Part shown: positions 1 to 35,447 of the stretch, one piece after another
Numbering within the stretch: the first letter of the stretch is position 1
Layout of the letters: each line of letters starts with the position of its first letter
Assembly (NCBI RefSeq): GCF_028276765.1
Contig: NZ_JAPYVU010000016.1
Span: forward strand, 1 to 35,447
Length of the DNA stretch: 35,447 nt
Direction of reading: 5' to 3'
DNA from: Sulfurihydrogenibium sp.
GTDB taxonomy: Bacteria; Aquificota; Aquificia; Aquificales; Hydrogenothermaceae
The notes under the pieces: generated by a model
The model's input: only the letters and a program-made list of their open reading frames with translations
What the model was told of the DNA's origin: nothing
Databases searched by the model: none
Program-made: the position numbers and the translations under genes

Positions 1-224
1 CTTTATAACCCACACGGTTCAGATGTAACTCTTATTATTTAAAGAAAGTCCCAGAGCCGAACCTCCTTTATAACCCACACGGTTCAGATGTAACACAAGC
101 TGGCAAATAATTTAATTGTTATAACTGAATCTTTATAACCCACACGGTTCAGATGTAACCCTCATATACAAATGATAGAAATTTAAAAAAAAGAACTTTA
201 TAACCCACACGGTTCAGATGTAAC
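1..224 (-). CRISPR. CRISPR array 1 (29-nt repeat, partial, 4 repeats visible)
   Basis: Four identical 29-nt repeats at 1-29, 66-94, 131-159 and 196-224, separated by three 36-nt spacers. The leader lies to the right (225-850), so the array is read on the minus strand, where the repeat begins GTTACATCTGAACC and ends GGGTTATAAAG. The window starts exactly at a repeat, so the array probably continues to the left. The repeat can form a small AACC/GGTT hairpin. It is the same family as array 4, of the GTTAC subtype. No cas genes are present to assign a type. Confidence 0.95.
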
Positions 225-850
225 CCGTTAACTTTTAACTCAAAAATAAAATCGCTTACAACCTACTCTATCAATATTCTGATAATCATTATACCAAATT
301 TTTAAAAAACCTGCAAGTTGAAGTTTTTTGCAGCAAACCTCGATATACAGAAAATATATTATTATATTTTATCCTTTAACATCCCATCACAAACCAACCG
401 CTGAAAACCACAAACTCAGAAGCCCGCTGCAAATATCACTGATTAACTTCCCGATCTTGAAAAATTTTAAAATAAAAAATTACAAATTCTCAAAAAATTA
501 AGTATTAAAAATTTCAAAATTAAAAAGTTTAACTCATCAAATACTTACAACTACTCTTCAAAAAATCTCTTTCGAATATTTACTACACAAGCTCAAATCA
601 AACTTCAAAAAATAAAATCACATTACCAATACCTTAGCTTCACTGACTGCTGAATCATCTCACCAAACTATCACAAAATCAAACAAAAATAGCTAAGATA
701 TTGATAAACCAATCTCCAACGTCTCACTTCTCACGTCTCACGTTTCACGTAATATAAGCTTGTGCGGGCTAACCTATTCAATTGCCAAGGTACAGTTAAA
801 AAATTAAAAATTATGTAATAAGTATATCAAAAAAATTTTCTATCTGTCAA
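225..850 (-). promoter_or_regulatory. CRISPR leader L1 (~626 bp, two promoters)
   Basis: Minus-strand leader of array 1, near-identical over its whole length to L2 (3096-3717), L3 (8611-9234) and L4 (33550-34168). The distal promoter is TTGACA at 850-845, then an 18-bp spacer and TATACT. The proximal promoter is TTGCAG at 316-311, a 17-bp spacer and TATAAT at 293-288, ending 63 bp before the first repeat. Five heptad units of ACGTGAR type lie at 716-750. The 41-bp block 247-287 matches L4 and differs from L2/L3, in line with repeat type. Confidence 0.85.
586..764 (-). ncRNA. candidate structured leader RNA, copy in L1
   Basis: Minus-strand P1 is CACAAGCTTA (764-755) pairing with TGAGCTTGTG (595-586) through one G-U pair. 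P2 is 705-693 with 637-625, 13 pairs including G-U. P3 is TGATT (657-653), loop CAGC, AGTCA (648-644). The distance between P1 strands is 159 nt, as in the other three copies. The promoter at 850-845 would transcribe it. This is predicted from pairing alone; no expression data. Confidence 0.5.
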
Positions 851-2875: not shown

Positions 2876-2940
2876 GTAGTTCTTATGTAAGATAAAGATA
2901 AATATTTGAGCTAAACCAAATAATACTCTCAGAGAAATGA

Positions 2941-3061
2941 GGGTGTTTCAAAATTTTTGTTAATTTACCTTTCCTCGTCATCCTGAGGCCGTAAGGGATC
3001 TTATCTTTTGATTTTTAACTTGAAAAGAAAACATGAGATTTTTTGCTTCGTTCAGAATGAC
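2941..3061. repeat. dispersed palindromic element, copy b
   Basis: GGGTGTTTCAAAATTTTTG end, GTCATCCTGAGGCCG arm, spacer, then GAGATTTTTTGCTTCG...GAATGAC arm. It sits between the sdhA promoter and leader L2, about 35 bp from the leader's distal promoter. The arms are degenerate relative to copies f and j. Confidence 0.75.
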
Positions 3062-3095
3062 AGTGTGGGTTTTTGAAACAGTTTCCACAAAAAGC

Positions 3096-3717
3096 TTGAC
3101 ATGTGAAAATTTTTTTGTATATTTATATTAACTTTTTAATTTTTAAAAGTACCTTGGCAATTGAATAGGTTACCCACACAAGCTTGTTTAACGTGAAACG
3201 TGAGACGTGAGAAGTGAGATGTTGAAAGTTTATTAATCAATATCTTAGTGATTTTTGCTTGATTGTTTGAATGCTTAGCGAGATGATTTAGAAATCAGTG
3301 AAGCTAAGGTATTGATAAAGTGGTTTTATTTTTTGAAGTTTGATTTAAGCTTGTGTAGTTTAGGCTTGAAAGGGATTATTTGAAGAGAGGTTTTAAGTAT
3401 TTGTTGAATTTGACTTTTTAATTTGAAAATTTTTTAATACTTAATTTTTTGAAAATTTGTAATTTTTTATTTTAAAATTTTTTGAGATCGGGAAGTTAAG
3501 GAGTGATATTTTCCGCCCCTTTCTGAGTTTTAGGTCTTCAGCAGTAGGCTTGTGATTGGATGTTAAAGGATAAAATATAATAATATATTTTCTGTATATC
3601 GAGGTTTGCTGCAAAAAACTTCAACTTGCGGATTTTTTAAAAATTTGGTATAATGTTTTACACATTGGCAATTGAATAAGGTTTTTACGAATTTGTTTTT
3701 GAGTTAAAAGTTAACGG
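3096..3717 (+). promoter_or_regulatory. CRISPR leader L2 (~622 bp, two promoters)
   Basis: Plus-strand leader of array 2. Distal promoter TTGACA (3096-3101), 16-bp spacer, TATATT (3118-3123). Proximal promoter TTGCGG (3626-3631), 17-bp spacer, TATAAT (3649-3654), 63 bp before the first repeat. Heptads lie at 3191-3225. The motif TTGGCAATTGAATA occurs twice, near 3154 and near 3664; the second copy is in the repeat-type-specific block 3655-3695. Together with L1, which is inverted, this copy brackets sdhA. Confidence 0.85.
3177..3355 (+). ncRNA. candidate structured leader RNA, copy in L2
   Basis: P1 CACAAGCTTG (3177-3186) pairs with TAAGCTTGTG (3346-3355). P2 ATCAATATCTTAG (3236-3248) pairs with CTAAGGTATTGAT (3304-3316). 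P3 TGATT (3284-3288), loop TAGA, AATCA (3293-3297). P1 strands are 159 nt apart. P3 base pair 4 is U-A here, C-G in L3 and U-G in L1 and L4, which keeps pairing. The heptads (3191-3225) lie between P1 and P2. Function unknown. Confidence 0.5.
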
Positions 3718-3946
3718 GTTTGTAGCCTACCTATGAGGAATTGAAATGTGATTGATTGATTGATTTTTTACACTCTAAAATTTAGTTTGTAGCCTACCTA
3801 TGAGGAATTGAAATACCTATCAATATTAACTTTATTTATTTCATCTTGTGTGTTTGTAGCCTACCTATGAGGAATTGAAATATAAAGTATATATCTATTC
3901 TGAAAAGTCTCTAATAAGTTTGTAGCCTACCTATGAGGAATTGAAG
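3718..3946 (+). CRISPR. CRISPR array 2 (30-nt repeat, 4 repeats, 3 spacers)
   Basis: Repeats at 3718-3747, 3785-3814, 3852-3881 and a degenerate last one at 3918-3946; spacers of 37, 37 and 36 nt. The repeat begins GTTTGTAGCCTACC and ends GAGGAATTGAAA, as in array 3, but position 30 is T instead of C in the first three repeats. The last repeat decays at the ATTGAA end, which is typical of the leader-distal terminus. The ATTGAAA-type 3' end resembles type I-B/III crRNA handles. A very short array: either young or trimmed. Confidence 0.95.
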
Positions 3947-4105
3947 CCTACCAAACATTTTTTGTCCATCATCTTTTGTCAATCTTCTTTCACTTCTCAA
4001 GCCAATAAAAAATCTCACATCTTTATTGCAGTATTACCTATACACAGACTTATTTTTTATGTAAAATAAATAAAGCCATTCAAATACTAATCAAGGACAC
4101 TAAAG

Positions 4106-8595: not shown

Positions 8596-8610
8596 ATATT
8601 ATTTTTCTGC

Positions 8611-9234
8611 TTGACAGGTAGAAATTTTTTTTGTATATTTATATTAGCTTTTTAAATTTTAACTGTACCTTGGCAATTGAATAGGTAAGCCAGCACAAGC
8701 TTATTTTACGTGAAACGTGAGACGTGAGATGTGAGACGTTAGAAATTGGTTTATCAATATCTTAGTGATTTTTGTTTGATTGTGCGATGGCTTAGTGAGA
8801 TGACTTGGCGGTCAGTGAAGCTAAGGTGTTGGTATGTGATTTTATTTTTTTGATGTTTGATTTAAGCTTGTGTAGTAAATATTTGAAAGGGATTTTTTGA
8901 AGAGTAGTTGTAAGTACTTGTTGAATTTGACTTTTTAATTTTGAAATTTTTAGTATTTAAATTTTTTGAAAATTTAGAATTTTTTATTTTAGAGTTTTTT
9001 AAGATCGGGAAGTTAAAGAGTGGTATTTGCAGCGGGCTTCTGAGTTTGTGGTTTTAAGCGGTTGGCTTGTGCTGGGATGTTAAAGTATAAAATATAATAA
9101 TATATTTTCTGTATATCGAGGTTTGCTGCAAAAAACTTCAACTTGCAGATTTTTTGAAAATTTGGTATAATGTTTTACACATTGGCAATTGAATAAGATT
9201 TTTACGAATTTATTTTTGAGTTAAAAGTTGACGG
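8611..9234 (+). promoter_or_regulatory. CRISPR leader L3 (~624 bp, two promoters)
   Basis: Leader of array 3. Distal promoter TTGACA (8611-8616), 17-bp spacer, TATATT (8634-8639). Proximal promoter TTGCAG (9143-9148), 17-bp spacer, TATAAT (9166-9171), 63 bp before the first repeat. Heptads at 8708-8742. The -35 of the proximal promoter is one arm of a CTGCAA/TTGCAG hairpin. Type-specific block 9172-9212 matches L2. It is the only leader here without a dispersed palindromic element at its distal side. Confidence 0.85.
8694..8872 (+). ncRNA. candidate structured leader RNA, copy in L3
   Basis: P1 8694-8703 (CACAAGCTTA) with 8863-8872 (TAAGCTTGTG), ten Watson-Crick pairs. P2 8753-8765 with 8821-8833 (CTAAGGTGTTGGT), all 13 positions paired when G-U is allowed. 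P3 TGACT (8801-8805), loop TGGC, GGTCA (8810-8814), with C-G at pair 4. Between-strand distance in P1 is 159 nt. Confidence 0.5.
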
Positions 9235-9793
9235 GTTTGTAGCCTACCTATGAGGAATTGAAACTAAGAAGGTTTAACCGAAGGTATTTCTAACCTGTAG
9301 GTTTGTAGCCTACCTATGAGGAATTGAAACGAAAATACAAAATCTTTACGTATGACAAGTAGGTGGGTTTGTAGCCTACCTATGAGGAATTGAAACTTTT
9401 TGGTCGGCCTTACAGACACAGGAATGCCTTTGGTTTGTAGCCTACCTATGAGGAATTGAAACAACAAAGAACAAAGAATATTCTTTGCCAAAACCTTTGG
9501 TTTGTAGCCTACCTATGAGGAATTGAAACACATCTGGATAGTATAGTTCATTTCTTGATTTCTCAGTTTGTAGCCTACCTATGAAGAATTGAAACTCTTT
9601 TTGGATTTGATTAGTTGTTAGAGTAGATGAGGTTTGTAGCCTACCTATGAAGAATTGAAACCCGTCTGCTTTATTATCTTTTTCTACGATGTAAGTTGTT
9701 TGTAGCCTACCTATGAGGAATTGAAAGTCTGGTAAGCGTTGCATTAGCTGTAGAATGACAATTGTTTGTAGCCTACCTATAAGGAATTGAAAC
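9235..9793 (+). CRISPR. CRISPR array 3 (30-nt repeat, 9 repeats, 8 spacers)
   Basis: Repeats start at 9235, 9301, 9367, 9433, 9500, 9566, 9632, 9698 and 9764. Spacers are 36-37 nt. The repeat is the 30-nt GTTTGTAGCC...ATTGAAAC type, with an ATTGAAAC end as in many type I-B/III systems. Variants: repeats 6 and 7 share a G-to-A change (ATGAAGAATTG), repeat 8 ends in G, and the last repeat has TATAAGG. Open reading frames across this region are artefacts of the repeat. The last spacer (9728-9763) resembles the dispersed element arm. Confidence 0.97.
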
Positions 9794-19116: not shown

Positions 19117-19956
19117 ATGTCAAAAAAAGCGTTTTTAACTCTTGCGCTGATTGTAGGCTTGCCGTTTTTAGTTTGGTTTGCAGGCAGTCAATCAACTGCT
19201 TTGAGAAGCTTGGCTAAGACAAATCCTTCATCTACTCCTTCAATGCCTTCCAAGGAAGCTGTTTCTGCTAAGCTTGCTACCTTGGAGCGTGGATGGGTTA
19301 AAAACGAAGGACAGTGGGATCAAAGAGCTCTCTTTTCTGCTCCGGGATATTTTGGCACTACATGGGTGACTAAGGATGGTGAGCTTTTGCATGTAGCAGT
19401 CAAGAAAGAAGAATGTAAAGAAAAAACAGCAAAAATCAAAACATGTCCTACCAAAAGCTGGGTGGTTTCTGAACGCTGGGTAGATGGTAAGGTTCAAGCT
19501 ATAAAGGGAGAAGAGGAGCTTGGAACAAAAGTAAACTACTTTATAGGCAACGACCCTTCCAAGCACAAATCTGGACTTTCTACTTACAGGTATGTTTCTT
19601 TAGGTGAAGTATGGTCTGGAATAGAAGTAAAGCTGAAAGCTACTCAAAAGACAGTAGAAAGGTTATTTTACGTCAAGCCTGGTGCTGACCCTTCTAAAAT
19701 TCAAGTACAGCTAAATGGTGCAAAAGGTTTAAAGCTTTCCAAGGATGGAGAGATAATTATCAAAACTGATTTGGGAGATTTAAAGCTATCCAAGCCTGTA
19801 GCATGGCAGGAAAAAGACGGCAAAAAACTTCCAGTAGAAGTCTCATACAAGCTAATTGATAAAAACCGCTACAGCTTTGTGGTTGCAAAAGCAGACCCAA
19901 GCTTGCCTATTGTGATTGACCCAATCTTACAGTCTACATATTTGGGGGGGAAGTGA
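19117..19956 (+). CDS. SBBP-repeat secreted protein, N-terminal part (frame ends at G7 tract)
   Basis: 279 aa ending at TGA just after a run of seven G. Residues 1-20 are a signal peptide/TM (AFLTLALIVGLPFLVWFAG). Residues about 40-275 match the DUF7948-type domain found in front of SBBP propellers (WVKNEGQWDQRALF, NYFIGNDPSKHKSGLSTYRYV, VWSGIEVKLKA, VIDPILQSTYLGG). The following frame (19916-21751) continues the same protein: with six G the junction reads STYLGGSDGDTAYTLTIHP, an exact repeat unit. So this is one gene of about 878 aa broken by a 1-nt insertion, by phase variation or by sequencing error. GGAGG lies about 8 nt before the ATG. Its G+C appears higher than in neighbours. Confidence 0.8.
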   Translation: MSKKAFLTLALIVGLPFLVWFAGSQSTALRSLAKTNPSSTPSMPSKEAVSAKLATLERGWVKNEGQWDQRALFSAPGYFGTTWVTKDGELLHVAVKKEECKEKTAKIKTCPTKSWVVSERWVDGKVQAIKGEEELGTKVNYFIGNDPSKHKSGLSTYRYVSLGEVWSGIEVKLKATQKTVERLFYVKPGADPSKIQVQLNGAKGLKLSKDGEIIIKTDLGDLKLSKPVAWQEKDGKKLPVEVSYKLIDKNRYSFVVAKADPSLPIVIDPILQSTYLGGK

Positions 19957-21751
19957 TGGCGATACCGCATACACCCTTACTATTCATCCTACAACAGGTG
20001 ATATCTATGTGGCGGGAGTTACCTCTTCAACCAACTTTCCTAAAACTACCGGCGGAGCGCAGGGAAGCCTTGGTGGCGGAAGCATCGGTATCGATGCCTT
20101 TGTATCAAGACTAAACTCAAACCTTACTCAGATTATCCAGTCTACCTATCTGGGTGGGAGCGATTCCGATTTTGCCACTACCATTGCTATTCATCCTTCA
20201 ACGGGTGATATTTATGTAGCAGGATGGACTGATTCAAGCGACTTTCCTAAAACTACCGGTGGAGCACAGGGAAGTTATGCAGGCAATAGCGATGCTTTCG
20301 TTGCAAGACTAAACTCAAACCTTACTCAAATCATTCAGTCTACCTATTTAGGTGGAAGTAAGGATGATTGGATCAATGAGCTTATCATTCATCCCGCAAC
20401 GGGTGATATCTACGTAGTAGGAGGAACTGAATCCACTAATTTCCCCAACACTACCGGTGGAGCACAGGGAAGTTATGGTGGAGGCGTTAACGACGCTTTC
20501 GTTGCAAGATTAAATTCAAATCTTACTCAAATCATCCAGTCTACCTATTTAGGTGGAAGTAAGATTGATGTGGTCGGCTCCCTTGCTATTCACCCTTCAA
20601 CTGGTGATATTTATGTAGCAGGTTACACTAATTCTACCGATCTTCTCGCCACTGGAGCACAGAAAAGTAATGCTGGCAATAATGATGCTTTCGTTACAAG
20701 ATTAAACTCTAATCTTACTCAAATCATCCAGTCTACCTATTTAGGTGGAAGCAATGATGATATGGCTCTTGCCCTTGCTATTCACCCTTCAACCGGTGAT
20801 ATCTATATAACAGGAAAGACTAGCTCAACCAACCTTCCTAATACTACTGGTGGAGTACAGGGAAGCTTTGGTGGTGGAGATTATGACGCTTTCGTTGCAA
20901 GACTAAACTCAAACCTTACTCAGATTATCCAGTCTACTTACCTGGGAGGAAGCGATAAAGATAAGACTGATACCATTGCTATTCATCCTTCAACGGGTGA
21001 TATTTATGTAGCAGGATGGACTGATTCAAGCGACTTTCCTAAAACTACCGGTGGAGCACAGGGAAGTTATGCAGGCAATAGCGATGCTTTCGTTGCAAGA
21101 CTAAACTCAAACCTTACTCAAATCATTCAGTCTACCTACCTAGGTGGAAGCAATAATGATTGGGCTAATGCTCTTGCTATTCATCCTTCAACTGGTGATA
21201 TCTATGTAGTAGGAGGAACTTATTCCACCGACTTTCCTAATACTTCTGGCGGGGCACAGGGAAGCTTGGGCGGTCGCTATGACGCCTTTGTGGCAAGATT
21301 GTCTGCTGGTTTGACGTCTGGCTACATTCTGTTCATTAGTCCAAAACCTACAAACGGAAATGTTGCATCAAGCCCTGGGGGTATAAACTGTGGCTCCGGT
21401 GGCTCTGCATGCTCTATAGACTTCTCAGGTACAGTAGCACTGACCGCTACACCAAACACTGGCTATACCTTTGCAGGATGGACTGGTGATTGCTCTGGTT
21501 GTGGCACCAATACAACATGCAGCATAAACATCACCGCTAACAAAACATGCTCCGCTAACTTTACAGCAAGCAATAGTGGCGGTGGTTCTGGTAGCGGCTC
21601 TGGTACTGGCAGTGGTAGCACTTCTGGTGGTGGCGGTGGCGGATGTTCTATGGTTGGCTCCGTATCTCCTATGACAGGCCTGTGGAACATCTTTACATGG
21701 CTACTTGTCCCAACCTACGTGTTAGCAAGAAGAATAAGAAGAATGAAATAA
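19916..21751 (+). CDS. SBBP-repeat protein, propeller and C-terminal sorting region
   Basis: Continuation of the gene above; the nominal TTG start is not meaningful. It holds seven SBBP units of about 66 aa, each with IHPxTGDIYVxG, TTGGAQGS, DAFVxRLNSNLTQIIQSTYLGGS: the first unit straddles the G7 tract, so the seven-bladed propeller closes only in the repaired frame. Residues about 475-555 are an InlB B-repeat-like domain (GYTFAGWTGDCSGCG). A Gly/Ser linker leads to GGGGGGC (C577), a hydrophobic segment and RRIRRMK, which resembles a GG-Cys CTERM sorting signal. Blades 2 and 6 share 168 identical bases. The product is expected at the outer surface. Confidence 0.82.
   Translation: MTQSYSLHIWGGSDGDTAYTLTIHPTTGDIYVAGVTSSTNFPKTTGGAQGSLGGGSIGIDAFVSRLNSNLTQIIQSTYLGGSDSDFATTIAIHPSTGDIYVAGWTDSSDFPKTTGGAQGSYAGNSDAFVARLNSNLTQIIQSTYLGGSKDDWINELIIHPATGDIYVVGGTESTNFPNTTGGAQGSYGGGVNDAFVARLNSNLTQIIQSTYLGGSKIDVVGSLAIHPSTGDIYVAGYTNSTDLLATGAQKSNAGNNDAFVTRLNSNLTQIIQSTYLGGSNDDMALALAIHPSTGDIYITGKTSSTNLPNTTGGVQGSFGGGDYDAFVARLNSNLTQIIQSTYLGGSDKDKTDTIAIHPSTGDIYVAGWTDSSDFPKTTGGAQGSYAGNSDAFVARLNSNLTQIIQSTYLGGSNNDWANALAIHPSTGDIYVVGGTYSTDFPNTSGGAQGSLGGRYDAFVARLSAGLTSGYILFISPKPTNGNVASSPGGINCGSGGSACSIDFSGTVALTATPNTGYTFAGWTGDCSGCGTNTTCSINITANKTCSANFTASNSGGGSGSGSGTGSGSTSGGGGGGCSMVGSVSPMTGLWNIFTWLLVPTYVLARRIRRMK
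19944..19950 (+). other. homopolymeric G7 tract at the frameshift
   Basis: TTT followed by seven G and AAG. Seven G ends the frame at TGA within 9 nt; six G (or nine) restores the beta-propeller frame. Slippage-prone tracts of this kind switch surface proteins on and off in some bacteria. Confidence 0.85.
20179..20346 (+). repeat. 168-nt exact repeat inside SBBP gene (blade 2 copy)
   Basis: Identical to 20971-21138, exactly 792 bp (four blades) downstream. Other blades differ at many silent sites, so this identity reflects recent duplication or gene conversion. Confidence 0.9.
20971..21138 (+). repeat. 168-nt exact repeat inside SBBP gene (blade 6 copy)
   Basis: Second copy of the 168-nt identity (see 20179-20346). 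The first mismatch after it is at 21139 versus 20347. Confidence 0.9.
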
Positions 21752-33399: not shown

Positions 33400-33535
33400 T
33401 TGTTATTCTGTAGCTGTGCGAAGAATCTTATTTTTGTTCTTTTCTTCCTTTCAAATAACAATAAAAGAGGAGATCCTTCGGCTTACAGCCTTAGAATGAC
33501 ACGAAAAGGCAAGCTTACGAGAATTTTGGAACACT
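33400..33535. repeat. dispersed palindromic element, copy k
   Basis: TGTTATTCTGTAGCTGTGCG...AATCTT arm, spacer, GAGATCCTTCGGCTTACAGC...GAATGAC arm and the end motif finishing AATTTTGGAACACTC. It abuts leader L4 (12 bp before TTGACA), in the same relation as copy a has to L1. Confidence 0.8.
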
Positions 33536-33549
33536 CTTGTTTTTTCTAC

Positions 33550-34168
33550 TTGACAGGTAGAAAATTTTTTGTATATTATTAGCTTTTTAATTTTTTAACT
33601 GAATCTTGGCAATTGAATAGGTAATCTGCACAAGCTTGTTTAACGTGAGACGTGAAACGTGAGATGTGAGACGTTGGAGTTTGGTTTATCAATTATTTAG
33701 TGATTTTTATCTGATTGATTGATAACTTAGTGAGATGATTTAGAAGTCATTAAAGCTAAAGTATTGATAATGTGATTTTATTTTTTGATGTTTGATTTAA
33801 GCTTGTGTAGTGATAGTTTAGAATGGATTTTTTAAAAAGTAGTTGTAAGTGCTTGTTGAAATAGATTTTTTAATTTTGAATTCTTTAATGCTTAATTTTT
33901 TGAAGATTTGTAATTTTTTATTTTAAAATTTTTTGAGATCGGGAAGTTAAGGAGTGGTATTTGCAGCGAGCTTCTGAGTTTGTGGTTTTCAGCGGTTGGC
34001 TTGTGATGGGATGTTAAAGGATAAAATATAATAATATATTTTCTGTATATCGAGGTTTGCTGCAAAAAACTTCAACTTGCAGGTTTTTTAAATATTTGGT
34101 ATAATAGTTATAAAAATATTGATAGAGTAGGTTGTGAGCGATTTTATTTTTGAGTTAAAAGTTAACGG
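33550..34168 (+). promoter_or_regulatory. CRISPR leader L4 (~619 bp, two promoters)
   Basis: Leader of array 4. Distal promoter TTGACA (33550-33555), 16-bp spacer, TATATT (33572-33577). Proximal promoter TTGCAG (34077-34082), 17-bp spacer, TATAAT (34100-34105), 63 bp before the first repeat. Heptads at 33643-33677. Type-specific block 34106-34146 matches L1 rather than L2/L3. Confidence 0.85.
33629..33807 (+). ncRNA. candidate structured leader RNA, copy in L4
   Basis: P1 33629-33638 with 33798-33807, 159 nt apart. P2 ATCAATTATTTAG (33688-33700) with CTAAAGTATTGAT (33756-33768): pair 9 is U-A here versus C-G in the other copies, a compensatory change; pairs 7 and 8 are mismatched in this copy only. 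P3 TGATT (33736-33740), loop TAGA, AGTCA (33745-33749). Confidence 0.48.
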
Positions 34169-35316
34169 GTTCCATCTGAACCGTGTGGGTTATAAAGTCT
34201 CATCGCTAAGTCTATCTATCAACACAAACCTGCTTGTTCCATCTGAACCGTGTGGGTTATAAAGATTTGACAGTTCTTGTTCGGGTGGTTCTTGTTCTTT
34301 TCGTTCCATCTGAACCGTGTGGGTTATAAAGTCGGTAATACTTGCTCTGGCATTACAATAGCTTCTCTGTTCCATCTGAACCGTGTGGGTTATAAAGTTA
34401 CTAAGCATGGTACTAGGATTATTTTTTCTTGGAGTTCCATCTGAACCGTGTGGGTTATAAAGGCTATAGAGTTTAGTATGGTTATTTGTTTTTCTAGGTG
34501 TTCCATCTGAACCGTGTGGGTTATAAAGAAGATAAAGGTGAGTGAACTTGTGTATTCCATTTTTTGTTCCATCTGAACCGTGTGGGTTATAAAGAATAGC
34601 TTCCTTTTTGGCATTTTTAAGGTTTTTATTTGTTCCATCTGAACCGTGTGGGTTATAAAGGTTTTGGTAAAAACCTCTTGAGAACAAAAAAAACAGTGTT
34701 CCATCTGAACCGTGTGGGTTATAAAGTTAAGGTATAACGCACTTGATACAGCCTTCGCAAGCTGTTCCATCTGAACCGTGTGGGTTATAAAGAAAGGATT
34801 GCTAAGTCTTTTATGAAGTATAAGATAAGTTACATCTGAACCGTGTGGGTTATAAAGCATAAAATAAAGCTAAAAATTGATATAAAAACGATTGTTACAT
34901 CTGAACCGTGTGGGTTAGAAAGTATCAATTTTCAACCAAGACATACAACTTAACACCAGTTACATCTGAACCGTGTGGGTTAGAAAGGATTATCTCGGAC
35001 GGAAATTTTCTATTGATAGAAAAGTTACATCTGAACCGTGTGGGTTATAAAGAGTTTTCGTCTGAGTTTGGAGAAGATGTAAAGTATTCGTTACATCTGA
35101 ACCGTGTGGGTTATAAAGACACTGCAAGAGTATTATTATCTTTGAGAACTGTCAACGTTACATCTGAACCGTGTGGGTTATAAAGATGTTGTCTTGCCGC
35201 TACCGTCTATACCTTCTAATAGTTACATCTGAACCGTGTGGGTTATAAAGCCATCTTCTTTACCTCCTTAAAAATTTTTATTTACACGTTACATCTGAAC
35301 CGTATGGATTATAAAG
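34169..35316 (+). CRISPR. CRISPR array 4 (29-nt repeat, 18 repeats, 17 spacers)
   Basis: Repeats start at 34169, 34236, 34303, 34369, 34434, 34500, 34566, 34632, 34698, 34764, 34829, 34894, 34959, 35024, 35090, 35157, 35222 and 35288. Spacers are 36-38 nt. The ten leader-proximal repeats begin GTTCCATCTG; the eight distal ones begin GTTACATCTG, as in array 1. Repeats 12 and 13 (34894, 34959) end TTAGAAAG. The last repeat is degenerate (CCGTATGGATT). Spacer 35186-35221 encodes, on the minus strand, LEGIDGSGKTT, the thymidylate kinase P-loop. ORFs over this interval are artefacts. Confidence 0.97.
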
Positions 35317-35447
35317 TGATTATATGCTTTGTCCAATAATAGAAAATCATAGAATAGTCTATTTTTTTCTGCATACGTTTTATTGCTTTTCTTTAATTAA
35401 TTATACACTACGCTAATAATTATTCATTGTTAAAAACCTATTAATAA
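35317..35447. other. AT-rich tail after array 4, nothing recognised
   Basis: No repeat, gene or clear promoter. AT-rich sequence downstream of the degenerate terminal repeat, to the end of the window. Confidence 0.5.

Follow-up and report, generated by a model that had tools for sequence, protein, structure and literature searches.

The window analyzed here is contig C16 (35,447 nt) of a Sulfurihydrogenibium genome (G000; 84 contigs, 1.75 Mb, completeness score 100%). It carries four copies of a long CRISPR leader, which head arrays of either 29-nt repeats (family A) or 30-nt repeats (family B), and copies of a dispersed element:

1-224, minus strand: A array after L1, 4 repeats GTTACATCTGAACCGTGTGGGTTATAAAG, truncated by the contig end
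225-855, minus strand: leader L1, preceding A repeats
3091-3717, plus strand: leader L2, preceding B repeats
3718-3947, plus strand: B array after L2, 4 repeats GTTTGTAGCCTACCTATGAGGAATTGAAAC
8606-9234, plus strand: leader L3, preceding B repeats
9235-9793, plus strand: B array after L3, 9 repeats, 3' flank orthologous to contig C109 of G006 and to 855.9 kb in G003, with no spacer in common
33545-34168, plus strand: leader L4, preceding A repeats
34169-35317, plus strand: A array after L4, 18 repeats
861-1020, 2940-3061 and 33463-33539: dispersed element, with further copies elsewhere in the window

The window also holds a 611-aa reading frame with tandem repeats of ~200 bp (19916-21751).

The four leaders measure 624-631 nt, about 12 nt of which lie upstream of the start first assigned to them. 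Their pairwise identity is 83.6-87.7% (621-628 aligned columns), so that the description of these copies as near-identical over 619-626 bp was too strong; across all copies, identity is ~82-90%. The homology begins at a TTGACA ~620 nt upstream and runs to the first repeat, stopping at the junction, and the gap between leader and repeat is 0-1 nt in the full copies, the exception being C48:11116, where a degenerate first repeat lies in between. As is characteristic of CRISPR leaders, the sequence abuts the first repeat on the intact-repeat side of the array, with degenerate repeats at the distal end. At L030:11116-11180, the first repeat is an apparent B/A hybrid (GTTTGTAGCCTGCGCTGAACTCTACTTAGAAAG); after it, the leader end occurs once more, ahead of B repeats. 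A coding function for the leader was rejected, the longest reading frames being merely 50-78 aa. A check for structured RNA gave column-shuffle z-scores between about -2 and -3.5 for four leader segments out of five, with a control that breaks dinucleotides in AT-rich DNA.

A genome-wide search of G000 returned 42 leader matches, 25 of which are full copies of ~625 bp joined to arrays (14 A, 11 B). Two sister-species genomes used for leader comparison, G003 (closed, 1.84 Mb) and G006, contribute 13 more full leaders, for a total of 38 (24 A, 14 B). The original prediction of one leader shared by two repeat families therefore holds well beyond the window. The claim that the repeats themselves have no similarity fared less evenly: the A and B repeats of the window are identical at 15/30 positions (interior-shuffle p 0.22), with no similarity beyond their conserved ends, but in relatives the A and B repeats share 57-63% identity (interior-shuffle p 0.005-0.07), and the two families thus look like distant relatives.

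Leader anatomy and its relation to repeat family

The internal organization of the leader is illustrated by L2, with one feature of L1 for comparison:

3096-3123, plus strand: distal promoter-like site of L2 (TTGACA, 16 nt, TATATT), at the 5' end of the leader homology
3153-3167, plus strand: motif CTTGGCAATTGAATA of L2, pattern CTTGRCAAYWGAATA; in other genera it lies near the repeat in B-leaders and upstream in A-leaders
3576-3631, plus strand: most conserved block of L2, containing GAGGTTTGCTGCAAAAAACTTCAACTTGCGG, with counterparts in alpha-type leaders from other genera
3626-3654, plus strand: proximal promoter-like site of L2 (TTGCGG, 17 nt, TATAAT), ending 63 nt from the repeat
3664-3678, plus strand: second motif copy in L2, one mismatch, inside the proximal block of X type, which is typical of B arrays
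3696-3717, plus strand: terminal anchor of L2, TTTTTGAGTTAAAAGTTAACGG, alpha type, common to A and B arrays here
288-293, minus strand: proximal TATAAT of L1, first repeat 63 nt away

The promoter-like sites, candidate promoters for the array, stand at fixed spacing. An exact 63-bp distance from the proximal -10 to the repeat had been noted, and it recurs in all four window leaders and in 36 of 38 across the three genomes, the remaining two having 64. Conservation peaks at consensus positions 481-540 and is lowest at 561-590. The motif CTTGRCAAYWGAATA occurs at six sites in the window, all within leaders (0.02 expected); since it is also present upstream in the A-leaders of other genera, it is not B-specific. 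We considered whether the entire 5' end of the leader derives from the end of an ancestral B-leader and rejected this, because the pairwise alignment is no better than that of shuffled sequences (41/200 reach its score); the profile match to B-leaders is weak. The motif itself is clear, but as it also occurs in A-leaders, a shared motif alone is claimed.

Leaders do not separate cleanly by the repeats that they precede. The mean p-distance is 0.119 among A-leaders, 0.135 among B-leaders and 0.139 across the two families; the leader tree requires a minimum of 7 label changes (mean after shuffling, 11.6), and a single clade of A-leaders is rejected (AU p 1.3e-13; 4e-4 for the distal part alone). 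A 35-bp block between the TATAAT and the terminal anchor exists as two alleles, X and Y, with X in 13/14 B-leaders and 6/24 A-leaders (Fisher p 1e-4), so the leaders are not wholly family-blind; the association between leader and family is partial, with clear exceptions. All fully led B arrays in G000, G003 and G006 end in TTAACGG or TTGACGG, the alpha anchor described below.

Probable leader exchange, Cas genes and related genomes

Between species, the flanks of orthologous loci are mostly 94-97% identical (lowest 88%), yet the leaders at these loci share only 84-88% identity, and in no case is the orthologous leader the one that matches best in the other genome. Together with the mixing of families in the leader tree, this bears out one of the two explanations originally offered, the spread of leaders by recombination. 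The 3' flank of the L3 array is 97% identical to G006, yet the two arrays (8 and 17 spacers) have no spacer in common; in G003 as well as in G006, the two flanks of L3 and its array (8606-9793) correspond to separate loci, which implies either a rearrangement in G000 or a contig misjoin at L3. The L2 orthologue in G006 has A repeats, then a leader remnant with four B repeats, and the loci at 1561 kb in G003 (A) and on C216 in G006 (B) have both flanks in common, an apparent switch of repeat family at one locus. The sole B array of G003 has a decayed leader.

Spacer lengths are alike in the two families (means of 36.5 nt for A and 36.7 nt for B), and leader-proximal B repeats are intact while distal ones are degenerate. 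One A/B spacer pair from a common protospacer was found: spacers G0_C2:23550 (B, 37 nt) and G0_C63:3728 (A, 35 nt) have 34 nt in common, with the same 5' end and different 3' ends, as would be expected of separate acquisitions from one protospacer. No spacer matched the phage or viral collections searched for protospacers and PAMs.

The dispersed element, with ends GGAACA... and GTCATCCTGAGGC, directly adjoins the leader on its 5' side at 13/25 loci in G000 (0.009 expected per 45-nt window). Plain segmental duplication, which would carry leader similarity past the arrays into unrelated DNA, was nevertheless rejected: such an extension was looked for, the similarity was found to stop at the repeats and not to enter the flanks, and the 5' element is present at only about half of the G000 loci.

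A single Cas1 was found in G000, as in the closed genome G003 and in G006; all three have the alpha system described below and none the beta. The G000 copy lies on contig C36 in an operon cas6-cas8b(Cst1)-cas7(Cst2)-cas5t-cas3-cas4-cas1-cas2, with an HU-family gene just before it, and its cas4-cas1-cas2 genes (Cas1b) score above cut-off for TIGR00372, TIGR03641 and TIGR01573, as in a type I-B adaptation module. Contig C25 encodes III-B Cmr1-6 (Cmr3 scoring below the curated cut-off) together with one CARF and one SAVED-domain protein; this Cmr locus has no genes for adaptation. Only one Cas6 reaches the cut-off in G000. At L066:12833-15866, a SAVED-domain protein and two further genes adjoin the Cmr III-B module, an arrangement similar to the CalpL system that has been reported from Sulfurihydrogenibium.

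Across the family, Cas1 falls into two clades, alpha and beta. Alpha loci with a readable array adjoin A-type arrays (G001 754 kb, G007, G020, G022, G025 41 kb, G035), and beta loci adjoin B-type arrays (G005, G001 789 kb, G040 C20, G011 C57, G012, G032). The alpha systems are annotated as Cst-type I-B and have a leader ending TTAACGG; the beta systems are Csh-type I-B (G005, G001) with a different leader, which, where readable, has CTTGRCAAYWGAATA ~16 nt ahead of the repeat. In G001, the beta cas1 is broken into two frames that overlap (L213:5258-5966). Since relatives keep two separate Cas1, leader and repeat systems, the shared leader is derived.

Other genera have a separate leader on most B arrays, with the alpha leader on exceptions in G007 (C4) and G040 (C28). 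The B leader is kept at four readable B arrays of G007, an alpha-only genome, and the alpha leader occurs at one. In the mixed array of G040 C28 (L179), the alpha-type leader precedes four B-like repeats, behind which stand two degenerate A repeats. In G004, a MAG that is 89% complete, one A-like and one B-like array share an alpha-type leader, but the sole Cas1 found there belongs to beta, and this genome therefore lends no clear support to the model that follows.

Proposed capture of orphan arrays and its alternatives

We consider it probable that alpha adaptation captured the B arrays, orphaned by the loss of their own system, when its leader replaced theirs, and that the loci exchanged leaders afterwards. 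The family ancestor would have had two type I-B systems: alpha, with Cst1/Cst2/Cas5t, Cas1-alpha, A repeats and a leader ending TTAACGG, and beta, with Csh1/Csh2/Cas5h, Cas1-beta, B repeats and CTTGRCAAYWGAATA shortly before the repeat. Loss of beta in the lineage of G000, G003 and G006 would have orphaned the B arrays, which may then have received a leader of alpha type, terminal anchor included, most arrays keeping a motif copy near the repeat. Given this leader and anchor on B arrays, the surviving Cas4-Cas1-Cas2 presumably integrates spacers at both array types, and homologous recombination would later have swapped leader copies from locus to locus and from one family to the other. The order of these events is our reading of the present-day sequences, as is integration into B arrays by the alpha Cas1, and B crRNAs would be served by the alpha I-B or the III-B Cmr complex. 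Points against this reading are the association of the X block with repeat family, the decayed leader of the sole B array in G003, the beta Cas1 of G004, the lack of protospacer hits and the restriction of common A/B protospacers to a single case. The proposal of one apparatus for both families agrees with the single Cas1 of the three genomes, which presumably acts on both, and the two alternatives of the original prediction, shared adaptation and leader recombination, are both supported and belong together.

Gene conversion could instead homogenize leaders with no function for the B arrays, which would be fossils without spacer uptake. Some B arrays do look like this, being decayed and downstream of A arrays or having lost their leader (G3_c, G6_C53, G0_C45, G6_C198); however, the replacement of every spacer at the L3 orthologue, next to a flank that is 97% identical, the intact leader-proximal and degenerate distal B repeats, the exact 63-nt spacing in B arrays too and the protospacer common to an A and a B array make this unlikely. 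Also unlikely is that the leader is shared for transcription only, as a common promoter and operator, with adaptation specificity residing elsewhere: the leader does have two promoter-like sites, and several leaders of both kinds have the motif shortly 3' of a -10-like site, but the B arrays took on the alpha-type terminal anchor as well, which sits at the integration junction, and in relatives the leader type goes with the Cas1 clade.

It seems improbable that leader and array spread together as a cassette, whether mobile or segmentally duplicated, and perhaps along with the dispersed element. The abutment of this element on 13 of the 25 G000 leaders and the trailers common to subsets of arrays would fit such units, but homology ends at the repeats, both spacers and flanks vary from one locus to another, and many of the loci have orthologues in other species. 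Assembly gaps could hide a second adaptation module that serves the B arrays, considering that many of the 84 contigs end in leaders or arrays and that C36 stops right after cas2; the completeness of G000 with its one Cas1, and the presence of alpha only in closed G003 and in G006, make this very improbable.

Capture by leader replacement can be set against systems already described. Multi-locus CRISPR genomes with one leader in common, such as that of Methanocaldococcus jannaschii, likewise have a long leader at many dispersed loci, but are not known to have more than one repeat family. In Sulfolobales, which also have several loci per genome and leaders of 200-400 bp, Cas1, leader, repeat and PAM have been described to coevolve (review PMC4390879); in contrast, leader and repeat family are uncoupled here, and the leaders do not cluster by repeat family (AU p 1e-13). 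Thermus thermophilus HB27c (PMC7515739) is similar in its many arrays, leader clades, cas1 remnants and genomic I-B Cas1, but its type III arrays have identical repeats and need their own Cas1, not the I-B Cas1. A further precedent is a 2021 study (PMC8482600) reporting shared acquisition between I-B and type III systems with distinct repeats in 15 genomes. There, too, one I-B module was inferred to feed two repeat sequences (Vink category 2), and the type III system lacks adaptation genes of its own. G000 resembles this category in having one Cas1 with both A and B arrays. Here, however, the B repeats match the second I-B (Csh) system of relatives and the same long leader stands on 25 arrays, and leader replacement does not feature in the available text of that account. 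A keyword search with partial literature coverage found no paper on CRISPR leader replacement, exchange or swapping. Adaptation common to two repeat families is thus already known, while leader replacement as the route to it appears to be new.

More tentatively, Cas1-Cas2 integration may be set by the leader together with a minimal I-B repeat core, such that any array gaining the leader joins the memory. Leader replacement at many orphan arrays might then make good the loss of a system, and the ~25 long leaders may form a recombining pool that swaps arrays and perhaps rearranges the chromosome. If capture by leader replacement is correct, these bacteria would provide a natural experiment separating the contribution of the leader to spacer integration from that of the repeat, and would show a way for orphan CRISPR arrays to re-enter service. 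It would also cast doubt on assigning arrays to adaptation modules by repeat similarity alone.
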